DNA of 64,000 bases, from NCBI GenBank assembly GCA_021811185.1, contig JAJZPL010000002.1:95917-159916 (forward strand), read 5' to 3'. The notes beneath the pieces are model-generated. The model had not been told where the DNA came from. It ran no database searches and was given only the letters and a program-made list of their open reading frames with translations. The stretch is from a bacterium (lineage in GTDB: Bacteria; Elusimicrobiota; Elusimicrobia; Elusimicrobiales; UBA9959). Position 1 is the first letter of the stretch. The number at the start of each line of letters is the position of its first letter. Shown piece after piece: positions 43,669 through 64,000 of the stretch. The position numbers and the translations under genes are program-made.

Positions 43669-45558
43669 ATGGATAAACAATTGAAAGTTCTGCACGTGGA
43701 CGCGGCTTCGGCTTTTTACCGCGTGGAGCGGTTCCCGGTGGGCCCTTTCTGGGGGCCGGTGGACCTGGGCCTGCACCTCGTCGGGCGCGAGGCGGGCAGG
43801 CAGAGCGTGCTCAATTTCGGCACGGGCCTGCTGGCCGGCTCCATTTTCCCCGGTTCGAACCGGCTGATGTTCTCCGGGCACTCGCCCTGCTGGGGCGGGT
43901 TCTATATTTCCGCCATGGGCGGGGCCGGACTGATCTTCGACGACCTGGGCATCAACATGGTGTCCCTGCGCGGCAAGGCGCCCGCGCCTTCCGTGCTGGT
44001 TCTCAACCGCGAGCATGGCGAAGAAGTGCAGGTGGAGATAGTGCCCGTGGATGTTAAAGCCATCTGGGGCGCGGCCCCGGGCGGCGTGTACTCGCTGATG
44101 GACGCGGTCTACGCGCGCTGGGCGGGGGAATTCAAGCAGACGCCGCGCGTGCTGGCCGTCGGCCCCGCGGCGGAAACCACCGATTTCGGCGCCATCGTCT
44201 CGGCTCCTTTCGCGGACGGCAAGAGCACCCACGCCGACTGCTGGGCCGGGCGCGGCGGGTTCGGCAGCAAGCTGTTCCGGGAGCACGGCATCTGCGCCGT
44301 GATCTACGGCGGCACCTGCCTCGACGAGGATTTCCGCGACCGCACCGTGGCCGACGAGTGGTTCCGCGGCCGCTACGAGCAGAAGGTGGCCGCCAAGGAT
44401 TTCGAGGCCACCACCAAGTACCGCTTCGACCCCAAGTTCAATACCGGCGGCACGTTCGGCGTCAATTATTCCACGCTGAACGGCAAGATCATGGCGTTCA
44501 ACTACCGGAGCGCCCTGTGGCCCGAAGAGCGGCGCCTGGCCATGAACAAGGCCCTGGTGACCGGCCACTACCTCAAGCAATTCAATAACGAGACCATAGC
44601 CGCCAAGCAGCAGCGCACCTGCGGCGAGCCCTGCGCGGCTGTCTGCAAGAAGCTCAACGGCGAGTATAAGAAGGATTACGAGCCCTATCAGACCATGGGG
44701 CCGCTGTGCGGCATCTTCGACCAGCGCGCCGCCGAGCGCCTCAACCACCACGCCGACGCCGCGGGCTTCGACGCCATCTCAGTTGGGGGGGTGCTCAGCT
44801 GGCTGATGGACTGCCTTGCCGACGGGCTGCTGAAGCCCGATGCGATCGGCGTAAAAACCGCGCCACGCTGGGACCTGGACAAGTTCGACGTCGTGGCCGA
44901 TTCCTCGCACAACGCCGACCTCGGGAAGGCGCTGATAGACGTTATCCTCAAGCCCGGCGGGCCGCTGGACCTTTCGCTCGGGCCCCGCAAGCTCGCCCGC
45001 AGGCTGTCGCGCGAGAAGAACCCTGAGATAGGCAAGCGGCTGGTCTGCAACGCCAACGCCCGCAACGGCTGGATGGTGCCAAACCAGTACTGGAACTCCG
45101 GCGCGCTGAGCCCCATGCCCATCATGGGCAAGTACTACATGTACTACGGCTTCGATTTCGTGCCGCCCCGGCAGCTCGGGCGCCTGAACGCCAACCGCAT
45201 GGTGCAGGAGCTCATCATCGACGACCTGGGCATCTGCCGGTTCCACCGGGGCTGGGCGGAGGAGATGGCGCCGGAGATCGTGGAACATATCTGGGGGAAC
45301 TCCGCGCAGTTCCTGGACGTGGTCAAGGCCACCGCCGGGCGGATCAACAGCAGGAACGTCGCGGTGTTCTGGGAATCCGAAAGAGACATAGACTTCGTGT
45401 TTTCCGCCATGAAGCGGCGGCGCGACGTGGACGGGGACAAAGCCCCGGAGTTGGATAAATGGATAAAGGCCTTCGAGGCAGACAAGAACGCGGCCGCGCT
45501 GGACTATTGGTTCGAGATCCGCAAGGGCATAGCCGAGACCCTGAACACCCTGGCCTGA
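43669..45558 (+). CDS. Aldehyde ferredoxin oxidoreductase family protein
   Basis: A 629-aa AOR-family enzyme using a (tungsto)bispterin and one [4Fe-4S] cluster to oxidise aldehydes, or reduce acids, with ferredoxin. The cluster motif is CGEPCAAVC (Cys318-x3-Cys322-x3-Cys326; many AORs have x2 then x3), with the distal Cys523 in DDLGICRFHRGW. GPLCGIFDQRAAERLNHHADAAGFDAISVGGVLSWLMD is the usual pterin/substrate region. Length matches the family. The linked ThiS/MoaD-like gene supports a pterin-containing enzyme. The physiological aldehyde is unknown. Confidence 0.88.
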   Translation: MDKQLKVLHVDAASAFYRVERFPVGPFWGPVDLGLHLVGREAGRQSVLNFGTGLLAGSIFPGSNRLMFSGHSPCWGGFYISAMGGAGLIFDDLGINMVSLRGKAPAPSVLVLNREHGEEVQVEIVPVDVKAIWGAAPGGVYSLMDAVYARWAGEFKQTPRVLAVGPAAETTDFGAIVSAPFADGKSTHADCWAGRGGFGSKLFREHGICAVIYGGTCLDEDFRDRTVADEWFRGRYEQKVAAKDFEATTKYRFDPKFNTGGTFGVNYSTLNGKIMAFNYRSALWPEERRLAMNKALVTGHYLKQFNNETIAAKQQRTCGEPCAAVCKKLNGEYKKDYEPYQTMGPLCGIFDQRAAERLNHHADAAGFDAISVGGVLSWLMDCLADGLLKPDAIGVKTAPRWDLDKFDVVADSSHNADLGKALIDVILKPGGPLDLSLGPRKLARRLSREKNPEIGKRLVCNANARNGWMVPNQYWNSGALSPMPIMGKYYMYYGFDFVPPRQLGRLNANRMVQELIIDDLGICRFHRGWAEEMAPEIVEHIWGNSAQFLDVVKATAGRINSRNVAVFWESERDIDFVFSAMKRRRDVDGDKAPELDKWIKAFEADKNAAALDYWFEIRKGIAETLNTLA

Positions 45559-45620: not shown

Positions 45621-46943
45621 TCAGGGTTCGTCTATGTACTTGCGGGTTTCCGCCGCGACCACCGGGGCCAGCAGCAGCAGCGAGATGAGGTTCGGAACGG
45701 CCATCAGGCCGTTGAAGATGTCGGCGAAATTCCAGACGGCCGGCAGGGCAGCCACGGACCCCACCATGACGGCGGCTATCCAGAGGTACCGGTACGGCAT
45801 CACGGACTTCACGCCCAGCAGGTATTCCGCGGCTTTCTCGCCGTAGTATTCCCAGCCCAGGATGGTGGAGAACACGAAGGTCAGTAGCCCCAGGCTGAGC
45901 ACCGCCGGCCCTATATATGGAATATGGGAGAAGGCGCTCTTGGTCAGCTCCGCCCCTTTCAGCCCGCTTTGCCAGTCGCCGGCGCTCACGATAACCAGGC
46001 CCGTCATCAGGCACACGACCACGGTGTCCCAGAAGGTGCCCGTGGAGGAGACCAGCGCCTGCCGCACCGGGTTCCTGGTCTGGGCGGCCGCGGCCACTAT
46101 TGGGGCCGAGCCCAGGCCGGACTCGTTCGAGAAAAGGCCGCGCGCGATGCCGTAGCGCATGGCCTCTTTAACGCCCGCGCCCATAAAGCCGCCGACGGCG
46201 GCCTGGCCGGAAAACGCGGAAGAGATGATCAGGGCGATGGTCCCCGGCAGCCTGCCGAAGTTCAGCAGCAGGATCAGCCCGCAGCCCAGCACGTAGAAGA
46301 CCGCCATGAACGGCACCAGCTTTTCGCACACCCTGGCGATGGACTTTATCCCGCCGAGGATAACGACCGCGGTGAGCGCGGTCATCGCCGCGCCGCTGAT
46401 CCAGGCGGATAGCCCGAAGGTGTGCCGGAGCATCTGGGCGATGGAATTGGCCTGCACCATGTTGCCGATGCCGAAGGCGGCCACGGCGGTGAAGAAGGCG
46501 AAGATCACGCCCAGCCACCTGGCGTTGAGGCCGCGCTCCAGCACGTACATCGGGCCGCCGGAGATCTCGCCGTTGGGGAGCGTGACGCGGTATTTCACGG
46601 AGAGCAGCGCCTCGGCGTACTTGGTGGCGATGCCGAACACCCCGGTGAGCCACATCCACAGCACGGCGCCGGGGCCGCCCGCGGCCACCGCCGTGGCCAC
46701 GCCCACGATGTTGCCGGTGCCGATCGTGGCGGCCAGCGCCGTCATCAGCGCGCCGAACTGCGAGATCTCGCCCGCGCCCTCTTTCTCCCGGCTGAAGGAA
46801 AGTTTTATGGCCTTGGGCAGGTGGCGCTGGATGATCCCCAGCCTGAAAGTAAGGTAGAGGTGCGTGCCGAAAAGCAGGATGATCAGCGGCGCGCCCCAGA
46901 CGAGGGCGCTGGTCCTTTCAAGCAAGGCGTTAAAATTTTCCAT
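45621..46943 (-). CDS. AGCS-family sodium:alanine/glycine symporter
   Basis: A 440-aa symporter with about ten TM helices. Typical segments are FGALMTALAATIGTGNIVGVATAVAAGGPGAVLWMWLTGVFGIATKYAEALLSVKYR and GISRGLFSNESGLGSAPI-like (ARGLFSNESGLGSAPIVAAAA). It couples sodium entry to alanine or glycine uptake. TAGAAT lies six bases before the ATG and no Shine-Dalgarno is present, so a leaderless mRNA is predicted. It is the last clear gene before the truncated tRNA. Confidence 0.92.
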   Translation of the reverse strand: MENFNALLERTSALVWGAPLIILLFGTHLYLTFRLGIIQRHLPKAIKLSFSREKEGAGEISQFGALMTALAATIGTGNIVGVATAVAAGGPGAVLWMWLTGVFGIATKYAEALLSVKYRVTLPNGEISGGPMYVLERGLNARWLGVIFAFFTAVAAFGIGNMVQANSIAQMLRHTFGLSAWISGAAMTALTAVVILGGIKSIARVCEKLVPFMAVFYVLGCGLILLLNFGRLPGTIALIISSAFSGQAAVGGFMGAGVKEAMRYGIARGLFSNESGLGSAPIVAAAAQTRNPVRQALVSSTGTFWDTVVVCLMTGLVIVSAGDWQSGLKGAELTKSAFSHIPYIGPAVLSLGLLTFVFSTILGWEYYGEKAAEYLLGVKSVMPYRYLWIAAVMVGSVAALPAVWNFADIFNGLMAVPNLISLLLLAPVVAAETRKYIDEP

Positions 46944-47038: not shown

Positions 47039-47067
47039 TTGTAAAACCCCTGTTAATTTACTAATAT
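47039..47067 (+). promoter_or_regulatory. Promoter TTGTAA-17-TAATAT for the truncated tRNA
   Basis: -35 TTGTAA (47039-47044), 17 bp, and -10 TAATAT (47062-47067), 15 bases before the tRNA 5' end. The interrupted tRNA gene therefore kept its promoter, and transcripts would read into the island. Confidence 0.5.
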
Positions 47068-47082
47068 ATATTGACGTTATTC

Positions 47083-47130
47083 GCCGAGGTAGCTCAACTG
47101 GTAGAGCGTTCGCTTCGTAAGCGAATTAGA
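47083..47130 (+). pseudogene. Truncated tRNA-Thr (CGT), 5' half only
   Basis: The sequence has acceptor strand GCCGAGG, TA, a D arm GCTC...GAGC, then anticodon arm TTCGC-TTCGTAA-GCGAA with anticodon CGT at 47116-47118, like E. coli tRNA-Thr(CGT). After GCGAATTAGA the T arm and 3' acceptor strand (expected CCTCGGC) are absent and unrelated AT-rich DNA begins. The gene is therefore broken at the anticodon stem/variable region, the usual area for tyrosine-recombinase integration. ACG codons could still be read by tRNA-Thr(TGT). Confidence 0.75.
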
Positions 47131-47480
47131 CCCTCATAAAAACCCCTAAATTTGACCTCAAACCGGCCTTTCCCATGGCCTTGAGCCTCCAATGAGAGCG
47201 CCCCACTTTGCCATGTTTAATTTTTGATCGAAAGTATTCTGCTCATTCCAATGCCAATTTAGCTCAATTTTGTCCTAATTGTCCACCAAATAGCCACCGA
47301 ATTAGCCACTAAAAAAAACTGTCCATTATCCTTGGCTTTAGGCCTGGCTAAAGTCCGAGGAATGTGGCAAAGCCTGAAATAGGCCCCAAACCTGCCTTAA
47401 AACGCAGTTTCAGGCCCTTTAAGGGGCTTTCTGTGTCGGGGAGTGGAAGCTTGATTGTCGCGTTTAGCGCGTTAAATACG
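47131..47480. other. Gene-free left end of the island
   Basis: About 350 bases with no supported ORF on either strand. It includes a short repetitive stretch, CCACCAAATAGCCACCGAATTAGCCAC (three CCA/GCCAC units), and an imperfect inverted repeat GCCTGAAAT...GTTTCAGGC at about 47380-47418. I looked for tyrosine-recombinase C-terminal motifs on the minus strand and saw none. Confidence 0.5.
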
Positions 47481-47536: not shown

Positions 47537-47929
47537 TTAAGCGCTTTTAAACTGAGCGACCAAGGATTTGGCTATTTTGATAATACGCTTGCGGTTCTTC
47601 GGAGAACTACTGCGAAGGATCTTAATTAGGGAGAGCAGGTCTTTGTCTTCTGCCGGAGAAAAATACATTGCTGTTTTCTCACGAGTTGCCGAGACCGCCT
47701 GCAAGCTGGCTCCTGCCGCCCCGGCAAGTAAGTCCGTAATAGGCTTTTTCAGCCCATCAGCTATCTTTTTAAGATTGACCAGCGAGGGATTGCGCCTGCC
47801 GCGCTCTACGTCACCCAGGTAATTCGGATGGAGCTGCGCCCGGAAAGCTAATTCCTCAAGAGTCAGGCAGTCCGCTAGCCTGAATTTACGGATATTTTTG
47901 CCTACCAGCGCTTGTATCTTTACGTCCAC
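47537..47929 (-). CDS. XRE-family HTH transcriptional regulator
   Basis: A 130-aa regulator. Residues 10-68 form an XRE/Cro-C1 helix-turn-helix (VGKNIRKFRLADCLTLEELAFRAQLHPNYLGDVERGRRNPSLVNLKKIADGL). The C-terminal part (DLLSLIKILRSSSPKNRKRIIKIAKSL) is a basic helix likely for dimerisation. Start is GTG behind GGAGG. As the first island gene it may control the element. A 7-bp palindrome at 48012-48031 between it and the divergent lipoprotein is a candidate operator. Confidence 0.85.
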   Translation of the reverse strand: MDVKIQALVGKNIRKFRLADCLTLEELAFRAQLHPNYLGDVERGRRNPSLVNLKKIADGLKKPITDLLAGAAGASLQAVSATREKTAMYFSPAEDKDLLSLIKILRSSSPKNRKRIIKIAKSLVAQFKSA

Positions 47930-51832: not shown

Positions 51833-52945
51833 ATGAACGTACAGTGTTGCGAGAATTGTTTTCTTGAGCCAAGTATTCGAAATTATATCCATAAAATCGG
51901 ATTGGTCTCAAAGGAGCCATGTGAGTACTGCGGCTCAATAGAGATGCCGAGTGTTGAGGTTTCTACTCTTAGGGAGCTTTTTGAACCTGTAATTCAAAAA
52001 CATTATCTTACCTGCGATAACCTTAGTCAATATCGGCACGAAGACCCTGGCAATGGTGAGGACCTCGTTACTCTTCTTGACTCTGACTTCGGAGTGTTTT
52101 CCGAAGAGGTCGAAGATAGTTGTGAGCTTCTTAACGATATACTAAATCTAGATCGTGATCAGTGTGAGCCTGAAATGGATCCGCGCGACTCGTGGTTCAG
52201 GATTGACGATGATTGGGGATACAGATCGCCTGAAGAAGAACACGATGAGGCACTTTCCACCCTAACTGATGCGATAGAAACTCACGGGAGTGGAATTACT
52301 ATTCTTTTGTCACGTAAGCGGCTTCCGGCAGAGGTTGGATATGCGTGCGCGGATATTTTAAATGCATTAACGCACTCCTCGCTTAAGGCCGGGGAATTGT
52401 TGTGGCGTGCGAGGGTTGGAAATTGGGATGATGTGGAGCAGATAAAAGCTCCTCCCTCTCATTGTGCGAAGCCTGGGCGTTGCAGTCTGGGGGGGCAACC
52501 TGTGCTGTATGTCGCATCATCTCGTGACACGGCTGTGAGCGAAGTCCGTCCCAGCAAGCGGGATATTGTTTCAGTCGCCCAGTTCAAGCTTAAATATGAT
52601 GTCAAGATTTGCGACTTACTCTCTGTTCCGGTTGTTGCATCGCCGTTTACCGAGTTTGATGCCTATTGTCTGGAACTCCGAAGGAAGGCGTTAGCTGACA
52701 CGTTAGGTCAAGCCTTAGCCAAGCCTATAAGACCGGATGAGGAGCCAAGGGAATATCTCGTGACACAAGTTCTCTGTTATCTGATATTCGATAAAGGATT
52801 TGACGGTATTCGGTATCATTCCTCCCAGCATGACGGCGGCGTAAACATGGTTTTCCTGGAACCAGAGATTGCAGAGCCGGTCGCAACATCGTTTAGCCAT
52901 GTCACGGTAAAAGCGGTTTCTTACAGTATTGGGGAAGGTCAATAA
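51833..52945 (+). CDS. RES-domain protein with cysteine-rich N-terminus (putative NAD+-targeting toxin)
   Basis: A 370-aa protein. N-terminal CCENCF and CEYCG knuckles (residues 5-40) could bind zinc and are followed by an acidic helical region. The C-terminal 170 residues are a RES domain: GELLWRARVGNW, LGGQPVLYVASSRDTAVSEVRPSKRDIVSVAQFKL, YLVTQVLCYLIFDKGFDGIRYHSSQHDGGVNMVFLEPE. RES domains are ADP-ribosyltransferase-like toxins that degrade NAD+, normally paired with an Xre antitoxin, but no antitoxin gene is adjacent. The layout matches the HEPN/RES-N-terminal type of standalone effectors. Confidence 0.75.
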   Translation: MNVQCCENCFLEPSIRNYIHKIGLVSKEPCEYCGSIEMPSVEVSTLRELFEPVIQKHYLTCDNLSQYRHEDPGNGEDLVTLLDSDFGVFSEEVEDSCELLNDILNLDRDQCEPEMDPRDSWFRIDDDWGYRSPEEEHDEALSTLTDAIETHGSGITILLSRKRLPAEVGYACADILNALTHSSLKAGELLWRARVGNWDDVEQIKAPPSHCAKPGRCSLGGQPVLYVASSRDTAVSEVRPSKRDIVSVAQFKLKYDVKICDLLSVPVVASPFTEFDAYCLELRRKALADTLGQALAKPIRPDEEPREYLVTQVLCYLIFDKGFDGIRYHSSQHDGGVNMVFLEPEIAEPVATSFSHVTVKAVSYSIGEGQ

Positions 52946-53639: not shown

Positions 53640-55589
53640 TTATTTACCCCGATACTTTTTGATAAGTGGGGGATTTTCCACATCATCCGGTTTCATATGT
53701 CTTTCCTGGAAATCCAGTTTCTTGGGGTCTTCTGGACGAAATATCTCTTTATCTATTACTATGAACTGAGTTCCTTTTAATTCAGTTTCCGCTAGCTTAT
53801 GAAGCATTTTGTGGAACCCTGCAAATTGCATGAGATTCTCTCTTTCGCTGACGTTTTTCATTGGTGAATCAATAATTAAAATCGTTGGCAATGTTACGCC
53901 ATTCCTTACTGCCAATCTGTGAATAGCAACCGCAAAACAACATTTAAAGAATGTTTTTTTACCTCCACTGCCCAAATTGGCAAAGGAAGTTCGCACTATA
54001 TCACCAGTACTTTGACCGTAGACTTGTGGTAGGAATTTTGGGGAGTTTATTTCCACAGAGTCGTCAGATTTAAAGCCGTGGAGATGAGACTTTACCAAAC
54101 AATCAAGGAATAACTCCTTAAGAAGATCCAGGTTTGAAGTATCCTTCTCCGCTTCAGCACGCACGATTTTTAATTCAGCCCTAATTTCGGCTTCACGGCC
54201 TGCCAATTGAATAGTTTCTTCCTGAAGTTTCTCTATTTTATTTGCCAAAGCCTCTACCTGCTGCAAATCCTCTGTCCTCTGTATGAGTCGCGCGCGTTCT
54301 TTTTCAAATGCCAATGCTGCGGCCAAGTATTTGGAATCATACTCTCGCAATGCCTGTTCTAAATCGTTATCGACCGTCGTTTTTTCACTGGCAATATCTT
54401 GCCGTTGGCGTTTTAGACGTCTCGTTTCCTCTAATTGCAGGTCAATCCGTTCCTGCAATTCATCTGCGCGGGCCTTTGTATCTGCCTCAATTGCGTCATC
54501 ATTGATGGGACTTTGCGGCATATCCTGGTGGGCCTGTCCGCAAACGGGGCAAAGAGTTCCATCCTTGGGCTCCAAAGGTTGATAGCACTGAGGACACTGT
54601 ATAAACTCTATACCCGTCAAAACGGAGCGAGCGGCTTGTGCTCGTTTCTGGCGAGTCGCCAATGAGAGAAGTGTATTTCTATGGCTTTTATCTCTTGCAA
54701 TAGTTTGTTCAAGATCATCCAAGGCAGCATCTGTTTCCGCTATTTGGAAGGAGAGTTTGCGGCCTCTCTGTTGCAAAAGCTCCGTCTCATGGGAACGTAA
54801 TTTTCCAGTTTCGGTGCGTATTTTTTGTATCTGAATCTCTAACCTTTCAACCTCAGCCTTAATCTTTTGACGAAGGGCCTCAATTTCCAGGGGCGTAGCC
54901 AAATGTTCTACAGCGAGAGCTTCCTTAATGGCCTCTGCCGCAGATTCACAGCGAAGTTTCTTGTCTTTCACCAACTCTAATTCTGCTTCTAAATCGGATA
55001 CTCTTTCTTGGTGGAAACCCAAAATCAGGCGCAAAACGTCACGGCTTTTCAATTGAACGGCAAAGTTTGCCGCTTCATCAAGATTAAAAAAACTGCTGTC
55101 CATCGACTCCTGATTAAGGTAACAGTACCAAAACATATCGCGGAAGCTTAATCGGACGAGTTCAGATTCTTCTTTAAGTTTACTTTTGCGGACGTGTGGG
55201 GGGGTAACTCCTGCCAAACGGAATAACAAGTCTGAAAGCACTTCAATTCCAGTCCCTATAAGGACTTCACCATTAGCCACCTTGCCTGGAATTAAAACGT
55301 CATAAGGTTGATCTTTTTCTGTCCACTGGGCGTGGATTTTGTTTTCGCCGGAATTCCGAGTGAGAAAAAGTGGCGTCCCATTTATTTCAATGTCTAAAGT
55401 CGCCGACACGAACTCCTGTTGCAGGGCTGGAGTATATTCCAGTTTGCCTCCGAGACAGAAATCGATTAGGCGGGCGATGGTTGACTTGCCGGACCCCATT
55501 GGCCCGTAGTAATAATTAAACTTGGAAAAAGTCAGAATATCATTCTCTTTCTTGCAGTTCAGTGTGAGTTGTCGGATGTGGAAATTCAT
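53640..55589 (-). CDS. Rad50/SMC-like ABC ATPase with zinc hook (ABC-3C ATPase component)
   Basis: A 649-aa ATPase. Walker A is GPMGSGKS at residues 29-36. Two long coiled coils (about 205-310 and 370-500) flank a zinc-hook-like pair CPQC (332-335) and CPVC (347-350). The signature region is ASFANLGSGGKKTFFKCCFAVAIHRLA and Walker B is TILIIDSPMKN. This is the layout of the ATPases of ABC-three-component conflict systems. ATG 55589 overlaps the middle-component stop by four bases. DNA sensing or looping that activates the nuclease partner is the expected role. Confidence 0.82.
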   Translation of the reverse strand: MNFHIRQLTLNCKKENDILTFSKFNYYYGPMGSGKSTIARLIDFCLGGKLEYTPALQQEFVSATLDIEINGTPLFLTRNSGENKIHAQWTEKDQPYDVLIPGKVANGEVLIGTGIEVLSDLLFRLAGVTPPHVRKSKLKEESELVRLSFRDMFWYCYLNQESMDSSFFNLDEAANFAVQLKSRDVLRLILGFHQERVSDLEAELELVKDKKLRCESAAEAIKEALAVEHLATPLEIEALRQKIKAEVERLEIQIQKIRTETGKLRSHETELLQQRGRKLSFQIAETDAALDDLEQTIARDKSHRNTLLSLATRQKRAQAARSVLTGIEFIQCPQCYQPLEPKDGTLCPVCGQAHQDMPQSPINDDAIEADTKARADELQERIDLQLEETRRLKRQRQDIASEKTTVDNDLEQALREYDSKYLAAALAFEKERARLIQRTEDLQQVEALANKIEKLQEETIQLAGREAEIRAELKIVRAEAEKDTSNLDLLKELFLDCLVKSHLHGFKSDDSVEINSPKFLPQVYGQSTGDIVRTSFANLGSGGKKTFFKCCFAVAIHRLAVRNGVTLPTILIIDSPMKNVSERENLMQFAGFHKMLHKLAETELKGTQFIVIDKEIFRPEDPKKLDFQERHMKPDDVENPPLIKKYRGK

Positions 55590-56161
55590 AATTCGATGGG
55601 GTTCCCCCATTTCATGGAAATTATTTCAGGGACTATTTTGTATACGAACGATGTTAGTTTGGTTGATGGCATATGCCCTACTGCCCCATTAACCGTCTTC
55701 GCTCTTTCGACAAGGGCGGTAAATCCATTATCCGCTTCCAATCTACCCGCCAGGGTCTTGCCGGCTTCAGTAAGTTGTATTTTCACTGTTCTGCCTTCGC
55801 GATAAACTATTGCTAATTGCTTTGCCACTAAGATGCTAAGCCATCGGCGATATCTGGGATCCCAGGGCCCAAAGCGAAATCGTATCATCCGGGCCTCAAT
55901 AGTATCCCTGTCTTCTTCTGGTATGCCAGAAGTGGCAGCCTCAGCTGTTTCCCCTGGTTTTTTTAGTTCCGCCAACGCACGCGCTAGGACATTTGGATAA
56001 CGGAGCAAAAAATCCATCTTTGCCAGCTTCATTATCCCTTCCAGTGGCCTGGGTGTCTTTCCCCTGCCTGCGGCAACCTTTAGTAACAGTAATAGCCGTG
56101 CTTCATTGAACTCATCAGAGTTTTCTATAGCAGCGGCTGTTTTAAGAATTCTTAAACTCAT
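55586..56161 (-). CDS. ABC-3C middle-component-like protein
   Basis: A 191-aa protein, helical with a winged-helix-like C-terminal half: MIRFRFGPWDPRYRRWLSILVAKQLAIVYREGRTVKIQLTEAGKTLAGRL. The N-terminal region (LLLLLKVAAGRGKTPRPLEGIMKLAKMDFLLRYP) is typical of small middle components that link effector and ATPase in ABC-3C systems. It overlaps both neighbours by four bases (start in the nuclease stop, stop in the ATPase start), which strongly suggests fixed stoichiometry of a complex. There is no catalytic motif. Confidence 0.75.
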   Translation of the reverse strand: MSLRILKTAAAIENSDEFNEARLLLLLKVAAGRGKTPRPLEGIMKLAKMDFLLRYPNVLARALAELKKPGETAEAATSGIPEEDRDTIEARMIRFRFGPWDPRYRRWLSILVAKQLAIVYREGRTVKIQLTEAGKTLAGRLEADNGFTALVERAKTVNGAVGHMPSTKLTSFVYKIVPEIISMKWGNPIEL

Positions 56162-57423
56162 GATTTTTCTTCTAAATCGAATTTATCACTCCACCAAACT
56201 AAACAACTTTCGGTTAAGATCCCAGCCATACCCATTAGCGCCTCATACGGTTGGTGCGCTACTTTACCAGGCTCGCTTTTAGCTATCTGGCGTAATCTGT
56301 CTTGCACGCTAATTAACATCCGCTGGCCATAAGGGGCTGCCCCCTGTGCTGCGCGCAATTGCGCATCGTCGCATTCCGTCTTAACCACATTTTCTATCTG
56401 CACTAATTCAGCTTCGGTCTCCGGTCCACGCGTAGCCATTTCCAAGAAGATTGCTTCTGCGGAGAGCAACTGCGTACGTAAAGAATATGCATTGTTATCA
56501 AGGCCGCCTCGCTTGAGCTTTAAGTCAAAGCGTCGCTTATCCTTGCCTGTTTGCTTGAGGGGTTGCGTGGTGAGAGTCGGCAAATATCGGAAGGTCGGTG
56601 TTGTTAGATCACGACTTCTCAAAACGAACTCATCCACCGTTATTCTCTTGAAAGTTAGTTGGGGATCTGGCTGTCCATCTTCGATATGACGAGGAAGGTG
56701 TCTCGCCGCGTCCTGAGCTGAAAGAGAGGATGCCCCAGTTACCATCGAGATCATATCTCGCACCAAGGGTTCCAATTTGTCTTGCGGGAGGCGACACCAG
56801 TCCAGTTGCCTTAAGTGGTTTTGTGCAAGCTCCGCGACAAATGATTCTCGAGAAGGGGGCAATTTTGCAAAACCGAATTTTTGAAGAACTGCGAATAGTT
56901 CTTCCGGAGTGGTTTTTGTTGTGACTTTGGCGAGCAAGGCATTAAAGCCTTTCGTCTCGGGGTCTGACAGTGCGGTTGAGGATGCACTGGCAAGAACTGC
57001 TGAAACAAGACGCTGCGGAGAAAGATGCGTGGTCGCAGAGGCGTCACTCTCCGAAGACTCAACATTGGTAACAAAATTAAAGTGCTTAAAGCGCCCAGGG
57101 AAACGTTTGTTCAATCTTAAGAAGCCATTAATAGCGCTAACAAAGGCATCGTCTGTTAAGTTCCACTTTCCGTTTTCCGGCTTTCTAGTTTTAACTTGGT
57201 AGGCATCGAAAGACTTGTCATCAATTTGCGCTAGGACATCGTCCTCCTGCTCACACCAGACGGCTATATAGTCCCTTTTGCCAGCTGCAGCAGCAACAAG
57301 CAATACGACAGCATACGCTGATTGGTAACAAAAATTGCGGAATGTCTCGGCGCCAATATCTTGCGCGGGCAATTGTGTGATAGGACTTGGCAGTTCTGTA
57401 TTAGAGTGTTCTTCAATTGACAT
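56158..57423 (-). CDS. DUF4297/Cap4-like nuclease effector (ABC-3C effector component)
   Basis: A 421-aa protein. The N-terminal 130 residues match the DUF4297 (Cap4-type, PD-(D/E)XK-like) pattern: FRNFCYQSAYAVVLLVAAAAG, DYIAVWCEQEDDVLA (acidic residues 58-62) and SFDAYQVKTRK with Gln76-x-Lys78, the QxK half of the active site. The C-terminal half would be the docking domain for the middle component and ATPase. It is the first gene of the operon. Expected role: DNA cleavage once the ATPase senses foreign or damaged DNA. The effector choice is read from motifs by eye. Confidence 0.75.
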   Translation of the reverse strand: MSIEEHSNTELPSPITQLPAQDIGAETFRNFCYQSAYAVVLLVAAAAGKRDYIAVWCEQEDDVLAQIDDKSFDAYQVKTRKPENGKWNLTDDAFVSAINGFLRLNKRFPGRFKHFNFVTNVESSESDASATTHLSPQRLVSAVLASASSTALSDPETKGFNALLAKVTTKTTPEELFAVLQKFGFAKLPPSRESFVAELAQNHLRQLDWCRLPQDKLEPLVRDMISMVTGASSLSAQDAARHLPRHIEDGQPDPQLTFKRITVDEFVLRSRDLTTPTFRYLPTLTTQPLKQTGKDKRRFDLKLKRGGLDNNAYSLRTQLLSAEAIFLEMATRGPETEAELVQIENVVKTECDDAQLRAAQGAAPYGQRMLISVQDRLRQIAKSEPGKVAHQPYEALMGMAGILTESCLVWWSDKFDLEEKS

Positions 57424-57566: not shown

Positions 57567-57646
57567 AGTTCAGCACTATTTCATTGTAAACAAGAAATTT
57601 TGCGTAAAAATTTGTAAAGTTGATGTTACTAGCTGGGGGAATAACA

Positions 57647-58579
57647 ATGAGCCTTACCTCTTTAATCAGGTCTTCTGATTCGGAAACCAAACGCTTCTTC
57701 GATAAGCATTTCCCGAACGTGACTGAGGCTGTGAAATTAATTAATCAAGATCTGGCTGCTAAAAAGCTTCACGACTGTCTACCGAAAAAATCACCTGGAC
57801 ATGTATATGGCTGGGTGGGAACCGCTTTTGATTACAGGGCTAGATACTATTTAAAAATCACTCCATATAAACAGTTAATGGCCTATAGTGGCGGGAAAAT
57901 ATTTGAAAACAACCAAACCTTCGGAAAAAATCTTGACGCTTGGCTCCGAAGAACCCAAAAGCCTAAAAAGAAACTTACTGCCGTGCAAGAAAGGAATATC
58001 TGCTTGCTCACTCTTCTACTAGCTAAACTGGAAGTGTTGGGGCGGGCGTATATGGTCGAGTCTCCAGTGGAAGTGTTAGGCGAGGTGCACTATCCTATAG
58101 TAAAAGAAGCCATTGCGCAGCCGACGATCGCCAAGACACTCAAAATCCTTGCGGGCAAGTACGACCCTAACGTGGTTAAGGACCTTGCAGCGCTTTCCAG
58201 GATCTTTCGGAAGAATCTAGTGGCCTGGAATGTTCGTGCTTCTGTATTGAATCCTTTATTCGCCGGCAGTGCCGATGTCGGAGGCGCGGATGCTGATTTG
58301 ATCCTTGGGTCTGTGTTAGTTGAAATTAAATGCAAGAAGAGAGCTATCGGGCGCAACGATATCTTTCAGCTAATCGGGTATAAACTGCTGGATTATCGGA
58401 ATTGGTATGGGATCGATTGCCTGGGGATATATTTCGGGAGATATGGCATTCTTGAATACTGGCCGATACAAAAGATGTTCAAGGGCTTGGGCTGCTCAAT
58501 AAGCAGCATAAGCAAGCTGCGCGAAAAGTTCAGGCGCGCCATAGAGAAAGATATGCGATTTATTAATGGCTACTTGTAG
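57647..58579 (+). CDS. PD-(D/E)XK nuclease-like protein
   Basis: A 310-aa protein. ATG 57647 behind GGGGGA is chosen over the tracked 57620. The C-terminal half carries a restriction-endonuclease-like core: GGADADLILGSVLVEIKCKK gives Asp215/Asp217 and Glu226-x-Lys228, followed by DIFQLIGYKLLDY (Gln241), the common QxxxY motif. The N-terminal half (RSSDSETKRFFDKHFPN, VGTAFDYRARYYLK) is a conserved helical domain seen with this nuclease type, of unknown role. It is divergent from the ABC-3C operon and may be part of the same defence cluster. Confidence 0.7.
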   Translation: MSLTSLIRSSDSETKRFFDKHFPNVTEAVKLINQDLAAKKLHDCLPKKSPGHVYGWVGTAFDYRARYYLKITPYKQLMAYSGGKIFENNQTFGKNLDAWLRRTQKPKKKLTAVQERNICLLTLLLAKLEVLGRAYMVESPVEVLGEVHYPIVKEAIAQPTIAKTLKILAGKYDPNVVKDLAALSRIFRKNLVAWNVRASVLNPLFAGSADVGGADADLILGSVLVEIKCKKRAIGRNDIFQLIGYKLLDYRNWYGIDCLGIYFGRYGILEYWPIQKMFKGLGCSISSISKLREKFRRAIEKDMRFINGYL

Positions 58580-60313: not shown

Positions 60314-60757
60314 ATGATTGAGCTCTTGTTGAAAAAAATACTCTTTAGTCTGCTGGCCTATGTTACGATGTTTGGTCTGTACAAAAACGGATTTGAACAT
60401 TTATATTGCAAACCTAGTAAGTTGCTTAGTTCTATTTTTGAATCTGGCGCGAAGACTATCTTCACAAAACGTGGACAAAGAATGCGGGATGGTTTACTGC
60501 GAGTATTCGATTCTATTTTTTGGTTTCTAGTCTGGATAAGTTCGTATCGGGTAATTAAGTCTGTAGAGTTTTTTAAGAGAGATGAGTATCTTTTGACTTT
60601 TTCCGATGCATCGCATATTTTTGCGATAGTTGGTGCTATTATCGCTCTGATGTATTTTTGCATAGTAGTGAGCGAGATGGGAAAAAAGCATTATGCCGGG
60701 GTTATTACTATTTTGCGGGAATTCTTTTTTCAAACTTTGCCGCCTCTAGGGCGATAA
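60314..60757 (+). CDS. Membrane protein of unknown function, partner of the NERD protein
   Basis: A 147-aa protein; ATG 60314 behind GAGGGG is chosen over the tracked 60284. Three hydrophobic segments are visible (ILFSLLAYVTMFGLY, IFWFLVWISSYRVI, IFAIVGAIIALMYFCIVV) with basic loops. No family is recognised. The NERD-domain gene starts five bases after its stop, so the two are probably co-translated and may form a membrane complex. Confidence 0.6.
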   Translation: MIELLLKKILFSLLAYVTMFGLYKNGFEHLYCKPSKLLSSIFESGAKTIFTKRGQRMRDGLLRVFDSIFWFLVWISSYRVIKSVEFFKRDEYLLTFSDASHIFAIVGAIIALMYFCIVVSEMGKKHYAGVITILREFFFQTLPPLGR

Positions 60758-60762
60758 TCACG

Positions 60763-62226
60763 ATGCCTATAGAAAAAGGTAATTTCCTCACGGATGTCAT
60801 TCAAAGTCCCTGGTGGCTTAATGCCGCGCTGGGGGTGGCTGCTTTTTTGATGTCTTTTGTGGTTAAGGGTGTTAAGGCCGGCTTTATTCCAGTTGGGCTG
60901 CTATTCTCCCAACTCTTGAAGTTTCTCGCAGTAGTATTTCTTATAGGCGCGATTATTTCCTGGCTTTTGGTTTTTGGGAAATCCGTTTTTGGAAGTAGCT
61001 TGAGAAAGATGATGACTGATAAGCCAGAACCGGAGCGGCCGAATCCAGCGCATGTGGAATGGGGCCATGCTGCTAAGAATCCTTTTTTCAGTCAAACGGG
61101 TTCTCTTAACAAGGCAACCGTAATTGGTGAAAGCGGCGCGTGGATAGATATTGCGGAGAAGATGCAGCGCCAAGGCTTGAATATCCGTCACTTGGAAGAT
61201 ATTCATCCGTTGCTAATCCAGTTGCGCAATGCTTATCAACCGTCGGTGGCTAATTTTCATGCGGAAATCGCCCAATACATTCGGATGAAGAATACGCAGA
61301 TTGCTGTATTACGGGCTGAGCCCGGTTTCTTTATAACAATTATAAACTGGTTTAGAGTAATGTTTTGCAAATGGGATATTCGGAAACTGTATAGCGAAGA
61401 AAAGTTATATTCGGATGGATTGTCGGAAAACATTCAGAAGCTGGAGGCGCTTCTGCAATCCAGGGAATTGGCTGGCGCTAAGGCGGAACTGGACGTAATC
61501 GCGCAGCTGGCTTGCCTGCCGGCTGAATATACGATTTTTAATAACATCCGTCTGCGTGCCGCGCGCTATATAAAATTCAATGGGGTAGCGCTGTATAGCG
61601 CGCAGCTTGATCACTTGGTGCTATCGCCAGCAGGTGTTTTCGTAATTGAAACAAAACATTGGAGCAAAGAGTTTTCGGAGTCGGGCCGTTACCATAACCC
61701 ATTCGACCAGGTGGAGCGTGCTGGATATCTTTGTTACGACCTTTTGAATAAAGCCTTCGGTAAGGTCCGCGTGCGCAGTATTATTCTTAGCGCTGGCAGT
61801 TTGCCAATGGCGCCGACGGATTCTTATGTTAAGGTTATGCACCTTTTGGAGTTGACTAAGTATGTCGCCGGGTTTAACCACGTTGAGCTTATGCCAAGTC
61901 AGATACACGATCTTCACCAGTATTTTGAGCAGCGTGTGGTTGCATTCGTGCAGCCATCACTCGCCGACAACCCCGAAGGGATAAGGCGTAGTGACTTCCT
62001 GAAAGGAATGATGCGTGAGTTTGAGCAGGAACAATCAAAATCGCCAGCATCCGTTAGGCCCGCTAATAGACGAGCGGTCTTGATCCCGACAGAACCTCCT
62101 CCTTCTAAGATTCATGACGAGCGCCGCTATATGCCGCCCGCAATGCGGAAGGAATTTGAAGAGATAGAAAGGAAGAAACGAGGTGAGAGGGTCCTGGAAA
62201 ACACAGCGGAATCAGGAATGCCATAA
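60763..62226 (+). CDS. Membrane-anchored NERD-domain (nuclease-related) protein
   Basis: A 487-aa protein; ATG 60763 replaces the tracked 60658. Two N-terminal TM segments (about 20-36 and 45-70) precede a helical linker. A NERD domain follows at about residues 240-370: LDHLVLSPAGVFVIETKHW gives Asp283 and Glu296-x-Lys298, the PD-(D/E)XK-like active-site pattern of NERD domains, with GYLCYDLLNKAFG after it. The C-terminal 70 residues are charged and low-complexity. NERD proteins are predicted nucleases found with plasmid- or phage-related and defence genes. It is coupled to the small membrane protein upstream. Confidence 0.75.
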   Translation: MPIEKGNFLTDVIQSPWWLNAALGVAAFLMSFVVKGVKAGFIPVGLLFSQLLKFLAVVFLIGAIISWLLVFGKSVFGSSLRKMMTDKPEPERPNPAHVEWGHAAKNPFFSQTGSLNKATVIGESGAWIDIAEKMQRQGLNIRHLEDIHPLLIQLRNAYQPSVANFHAEIAQYIRMKNTQIAVLRAEPGFFITIINWFRVMFCKWDIRKLYSEEKLYSDGLSENIQKLEALLQSRELAGAKAELDVIAQLACLPAEYTIFNNIRLRAARYIKFNGVALYSAQLDHLVLSPAGVFVIETKHWSKEFSESGRYHNPFDQVERAGYLCYDLLNKAFGKVRVRSIILSAGSLPMAPTDSYVKVMHLLELTKYVAGFNHVELMPSQIHDLHQYFEQRVVAFVQPSLADNPEGIRRSDFLKGMMREFEQEQSKSPASVRPANRRAVLIPTEPPPSKIHDERRYMPPAMRKEFEEIERKKRGERVLENTAESGMP

Positions 62227-63912: not shown

Positions 63913-64000
63913 TTAAGTTGAAACATTTTGTTGGCCAATTCTGTTGACACTTTCAGCCGTTACATTCACTTCCCACTCTTCATACAATCCTAGTTCTTTC
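63913..64000 (-). CDS. Possible C-terminus of a protein running off the right edge (partial)
   Basis: On the minus strand the last 29 codons form an open frame ending in TAA at 63915-63913: KELGLYEEWEVNVTAESVNR then IGQQNVST. The amphipathic, charged composition looks protein-like, but the piece is too short to identify and was below the ORF-track cut-off. It is AT-richer than the two preceding genes. Confidence 0.35.
   Translation of the reverse strand, partial: KELGLYEEWEVNVTAESVNRIGQQNVST

Follow-up and report, generated by a model that had tools for sequence, protein, structure and literature searches.

The window analyzed here is a 64,000-nucleotide (nt) stretch from the draft genome of a bacterium in the phylum Elusimicrobiota (G000:C3:95917-159916), and its end is also the end of contig C3. 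At positions 47083 to 47124, on the + strand, it carries the 5' half of a tRNA-Thr(CGT) gene, which matches nt 1 to 42 of an intact copy on another contig of the same genome, C7, letter for letter. ARAGORN calls no tRNA at these positions, and the Rfam tRNA model reaches 25.7 bits there, below its cutoff of 29, with the T arm skipped. The missing 31 nt of the gene are absent from the window (best match, 19 of 31 letters), and G+C content falls from ~0.64 to ~0.47 at the end of the tRNA half. An earlier interpretation made from the letters alone (here, the sequence-only reading) had described a tRNA-Thr(CGT) broken at an island edge, lacking its T arm and 3' acceptor, with AT-rich accessory DNA starting at the break, and these points are borne out. 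The extent that it gave, 47083 to 47130, runs only a few bases too far, the last 6 being non-tRNA. It had also described an upstream promoter. We could read a promoter-like sequence by eye at 47039 to 47067 on the + strand (TTGTAA, 17 nt, TAATAT), but this was not called in a consensus promoter scan.

A complete tRNA-Thr(CGT) gene lies in the same genome at C7:14597-14669, and the 31 nt missing from the window are present there exactly. A genome search for the 3' half, as the sequence-only reading had proposed, thus succeeds on C7, although this half ends in CCTCGGCT and the CCA that had been expected is not encoded. The genome yielded one leftover half and one intact gene, and a megablast search of E. 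coli genomes gave no match. The half and the intact gene share an attachment (att) core of 49 nt, comprising tRNA nt 1 to 42 and the 7 nt of leader before them, with the left site (attL) at 47076 to 47124 on the + strand identical to the right site (attR) at C7:14590-14638. Taken over 89 nt, the half plus leader is 92% identical between C3 and C7 (E = 8.5e-28 in a search of the same genome), which excludes a chance match. The leaders are thus alike without matching fully, as would be expected had one of them arrived with the element, and the promoter-like sequence at 47039 to 47067 resembles, but differs from, its C7 copy. A pair of TAGCCAC repeats at 47291 to 47309 on the + strand has a matching pair at C7:14496 and 14509, with spacings of 12 and 13 nt at the two edges, and an inverted copy is additionally found on C7. 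These repeats are probably arm-type integrase sites.

On the basis of the G+C profile and open reading frames (ORFs), island DNA extends from 47125 to the end of the window at 64000, and the remainder occupies C7:1-14589. This part of C7 has a G+C content of 0.38 to 0.56 in 1-kilobase (kb) windows, which climbs to the chromosomal level past the tRNA. The island DNA seen amounts to at least 31.5 kb, with C3 contributing at least 16.9 kb and C7 at least 14.6 kb. The C7 part includes a tyrosine integrase gene at C7:9443-10531 (PF00589, E = 1.4e-26), whose best PHROG match is an integrase family. Its catalytic domain is homologous to that of the phage integrase HP1 Int (phmmer E = 7.7e-18 to 1aih), yet its best-ranked phage matches are ~28 to 35% identical to it, and a pattern scan of viral contigs returned no relative.

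We next consider the chromosomal flanks, which related genomes place on either side of a single tRNA gene. On the C3 side lies an aldehyde ferredoxin oxidoreductase-like gene (43669 to 45558, + strand). In G005 and G022, the orthologue of this gene lies 70 to 90 bp ahead of an intact tRNA-Thr. More widely, left-flank orthologues end 70 to 220 bp before tRNA-Thr(CGT), on single contigs, in G001, G005, G008, G015, G022, G033, and G036. On the C7 side, the chromosome past the tRNA opens with a gene for a large membrane protein, which we take to be O-antigen-ligase-like. An ARAGORN scan placed tRNA-Thr(CGT) directly before the orthologue of this flanking gene in 27 of the 29 loci of relatives. The comparison with related genomes that had been called for therefore recovers the uninterrupted order: left flank, tRNA-Thr, C7 gene. 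This ancestral order places the island inside the tRNA, and, since relatives carry tRNA-Thr(CGT) at the C7 place with the C3 flank opposite, the C7 copy is the gene that was interrupted here. This comparison of sequences makes C3 and C7 opposite edges of an insertion in a single tRNA-Thr(CGT) gene.

Taken together, these observations (the displaced half, the intact tRNA and integrase gene on C7, the 49-nt core, and the gene order of relatives) make it almost certain that an integrative island entered tRNA-Thr(CGT) and that 47083 to 47124 marks its attL junction, with the gene rebuilt as attR on C7. The integrase encoded at C7:9443-10531 would have recombined the element's own attachment site (attP) with the tRNA in the region of the anticodon stem-loop. 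In this scheme attP would have carried a promoter region, a leader, and the 5' half of the tRNA, so that the element supplies the 5' part and the chromosomal 3' half stays put. The element's 5' half would then have joined the chromosome's own 3' half to rebuild the gene at C7:14597-14669, leaving the original promoter and 5' half at 47039 to 47124 with element DNA after them. The sequence-only reading had expected the restored copy at the C3 edge, but the polarity is reversed: it is the 5' half that was displaced, and the chromosomal 3' half is in place. In this genome, the DNA in front of the intact tRNA differs from the DNA in front of the displaced half, and in G005 and G002 the difference is stronger. 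Transcription of the living tRNA-Thr(CGT) is expected to use promoter DNA supplied by the element.

Several points weigh against this interpretation. The two parts of the island lie on separate contigs with no sequence joining them; apart from the att core we found no similarity between the C3 and C7 parts, and no overlap of the contig ends. The C7 integrase gene is ~4 kb from the tRNA, farther than in most relatives, and the genome is a draft of 79 contigs with an estimated contamination of 5.2%. That the contigs break within the island, leaving its middle unseen, also leaves room for two elements or a tandem array in tRNA-Thr(CGT), such that C3 starts one element and C7 ends another, with att sites between them. 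The genus offers some precedent, as tRNA-Thr(CGT) is a repeated target in it and integrase remnants or a second half occur in G002 and G003. We nevertheless consider this arrangement unlikely, given that the genome yielded a single leftover half and a single intact tRNA and that the arm-type repeats of the two edges match one another. The half is a displaced attL piece whether one island or two are present.

The remaining alternatives had been raised by the sequence-only reading, and both fare far worse. An error of assembly or binning that joined unrelated DNA at the junction might be suspected in a draft genome with so abrupt a change in composition. However, the break falls exactly at the end of the 49-nt att core, the other half sits at the place that the gene occupies in relatives, and the same design recurs in relatives on single contigs, so that we regard a misjoin as highly improbable. 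It had also been suggested that the element destroyed the tRNA or that the restored half was later deleted, in which case the C7 gene would be an unrelated second tRNA-Thr(CGT). This contig does hold only a half gene, but the restored gene stands intact on C7 at the other island edge, and relatives have tRNA-Thr(CGT) at exactly this place with the C3 flank on its other side. Loss of the gene by either route is thus largely refuted, and we give it very little credence.

Among the 3,919 islands of the Islander collection, 159 have a 5' fragment and 3,760 a 3' fragment (PMC4383910), and a review describes the 5'-half arrangement as seldom met in bacteria, where recombinant tRNA genes are expressed from the original promoter with very few exceptions (PMC8371274). 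The island described here therefore belongs to a known, uncommon kind; islands of 5' polarity were already known, and this one newly adds to them. As in the 5'-fragment islands of Islander (PMC4383910), a regenerated tRNA and a displaced fragment mark the ends, each adjoined on the inside by island DNA, a tyrosine integrase gene (PF00589) lies within, and the core is in the anticodon region. The 5' fragment likewise precedes the intact tRNA and points the same way, an arrangement that we infer from the gene order of relatives. Islander, in contrast, needs both ends on one replicon sequence, 2 to 200 kb apart (PMC4383910), whereas the ends here are on two contigs with at least 31.5 kb of island seen. 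By analogy, the archaeal pTN3-like integrases are similar in that a rebuilt tRNA would be expected to use promoter DNA from the element side (PMC8371274). Those elements are archaeal, however, and the promoter in question is that of the integrase itself (PMC8371274), whereas the promoter-like sequence here directly precedes the tRNA, with the integrase gene ~4 kb away.

Homologues of the C7 integrase elsewhere in the genus adjoin several other tRNA genes: tRNA-Val in G002 and G021 (54% identity), tRNA-Thr(TGT) in G011 (45%), tRNA-Phe in G023 (41%), tRNA-Tyr in G005 (35%), and tRNA-Gly in G028 and G030. Two of these reproduce the arrangement on one contig together with a homologous integrase, with a displaced 5' half of tRNA-Tyr ~29 kb from the intact gene in G005 and a displaced half of tRNA-Thr(TGT) ~6.1 kb from the intact gene in G011. 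In G002 and G021, displaced 5' halves of tRNA-Val lie on other contigs. We looked for a displaced half in the tRNA-Phe case of G023 and found none; its 5' polarity, read from gene order, is probable. The tRNA-Gly cases run the other way. In G028, a 49-nt 3' part of tRNA-Gly has been displaced, which is the ordinary polarity, and G030 has GGTGTCC repeats 3' of its tRNA-Gly. The two Gly integrases, one of them a 106-amino-acid (aa) fragment, form one branch among those of 5' polarity with modest support. This nesting makes it likely, though not proven, that the core has changed orientation within the integrase family.

These cases raise the question as to whether one integrase family in the genus has used an anticodon stem-loop core both ways (5' for Thr, Val, Tyr, and probably Phe; 3' for Gly), repeatedly replacing the promoters of host tRNAs. 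We put this forward tentatively, rating its chances at slightly less than even. Across the genus, tRNA-Thr is preceded by one of two types of promoter, which might record earlier swaps by elements. Mapped onto a tree of the flanking gene, they require 5 to 6 changes, against a shuffled mean of ~7.9, and a number as low arose in 46 of 500 shuffles. A family with seemingly both polarities would allow the study of the effect of promoter replacement on tRNA supply, and of polarity flips. The wider point is a modest one, namely that within a single bacterial genus several elements bring along the 5' half and promoter region of the tRNA that they enter. For annotation, what looked like a broken tRNA gene turns out to be ordinary island biology, and the case shows that other contigs should be searched for the missing half of a tRNA cut off at an island edge before a loss is reported.

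We also noted two unusual arrangements of tRNA-Thr in other genomes. G003 has a second tRNA-Thr(CGT) 5' half at G003:C89:12326-12367 (L155), with no clear promoter upstream, and the sequence 3' of it resembles the island edge of the window (GCGAATAAGTCCTTCCCAAAAA versus GCGAATTAGACCCTCATAAAAA). At the start of G023:C20 (L053:1-270), the tRNA-Thr 3' end and its following sequence occur twice at a distance of ~140 bp, suggesting a local duplication or an assembly artifact.

In the window, the chromosomal gene nearest to the tRNA half, located between it and the oxidoreductase-like gene, encodes a sodium:alanine symporter (45621 to 46943, - strand; PF01235, E = 4.1e-140). This gene departs from the gene order conserved around tRNA-Thr(CGT): its orthologues in relatives (81 to 91% identity) are sited elsewhere, without a nearby tRNA or common neighbors. 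The first gene inside the island encodes a helix-turn-helix regulator (HTH_3; 47537 to 47929, - strand; PF01381, E = 1.3e-11). Further in, three adjacent genes on the - strand at 53640 to 57423 match PADLOC models for LmuB (1.5e-74), LmuC (1.3e-12), and LmuA (8.3e-22), and the LmuA match carries a Cap4 nuclease domain; they represent a probable Lamassu-type anti-phage defense operon. Other cargo, all on the + strand, includes a RES-domain protein (51833 to 52945), a PADLOC match to the PDDEXK partner of defense reverse transcriptases (57620 to 58579; 5.3e-13), and a NERD-domain protein (60658 to 62226). On C7, a methyltransferase gene with a helix-turn-helix domain (C7:8318-9433) precedes the integrase gene, and a 1,240-aa ORF on the + strand lies between the integrase gene and the rebuilt tRNA (L004:10667-14389). 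This ORF matches PD-Lambda-4_A in PADLOC (1.3e-21) and may be a further defense gene. A three-gene module of ORF, methyltransferase, and integrase is common to C7, G002:C23, and G021:C120.
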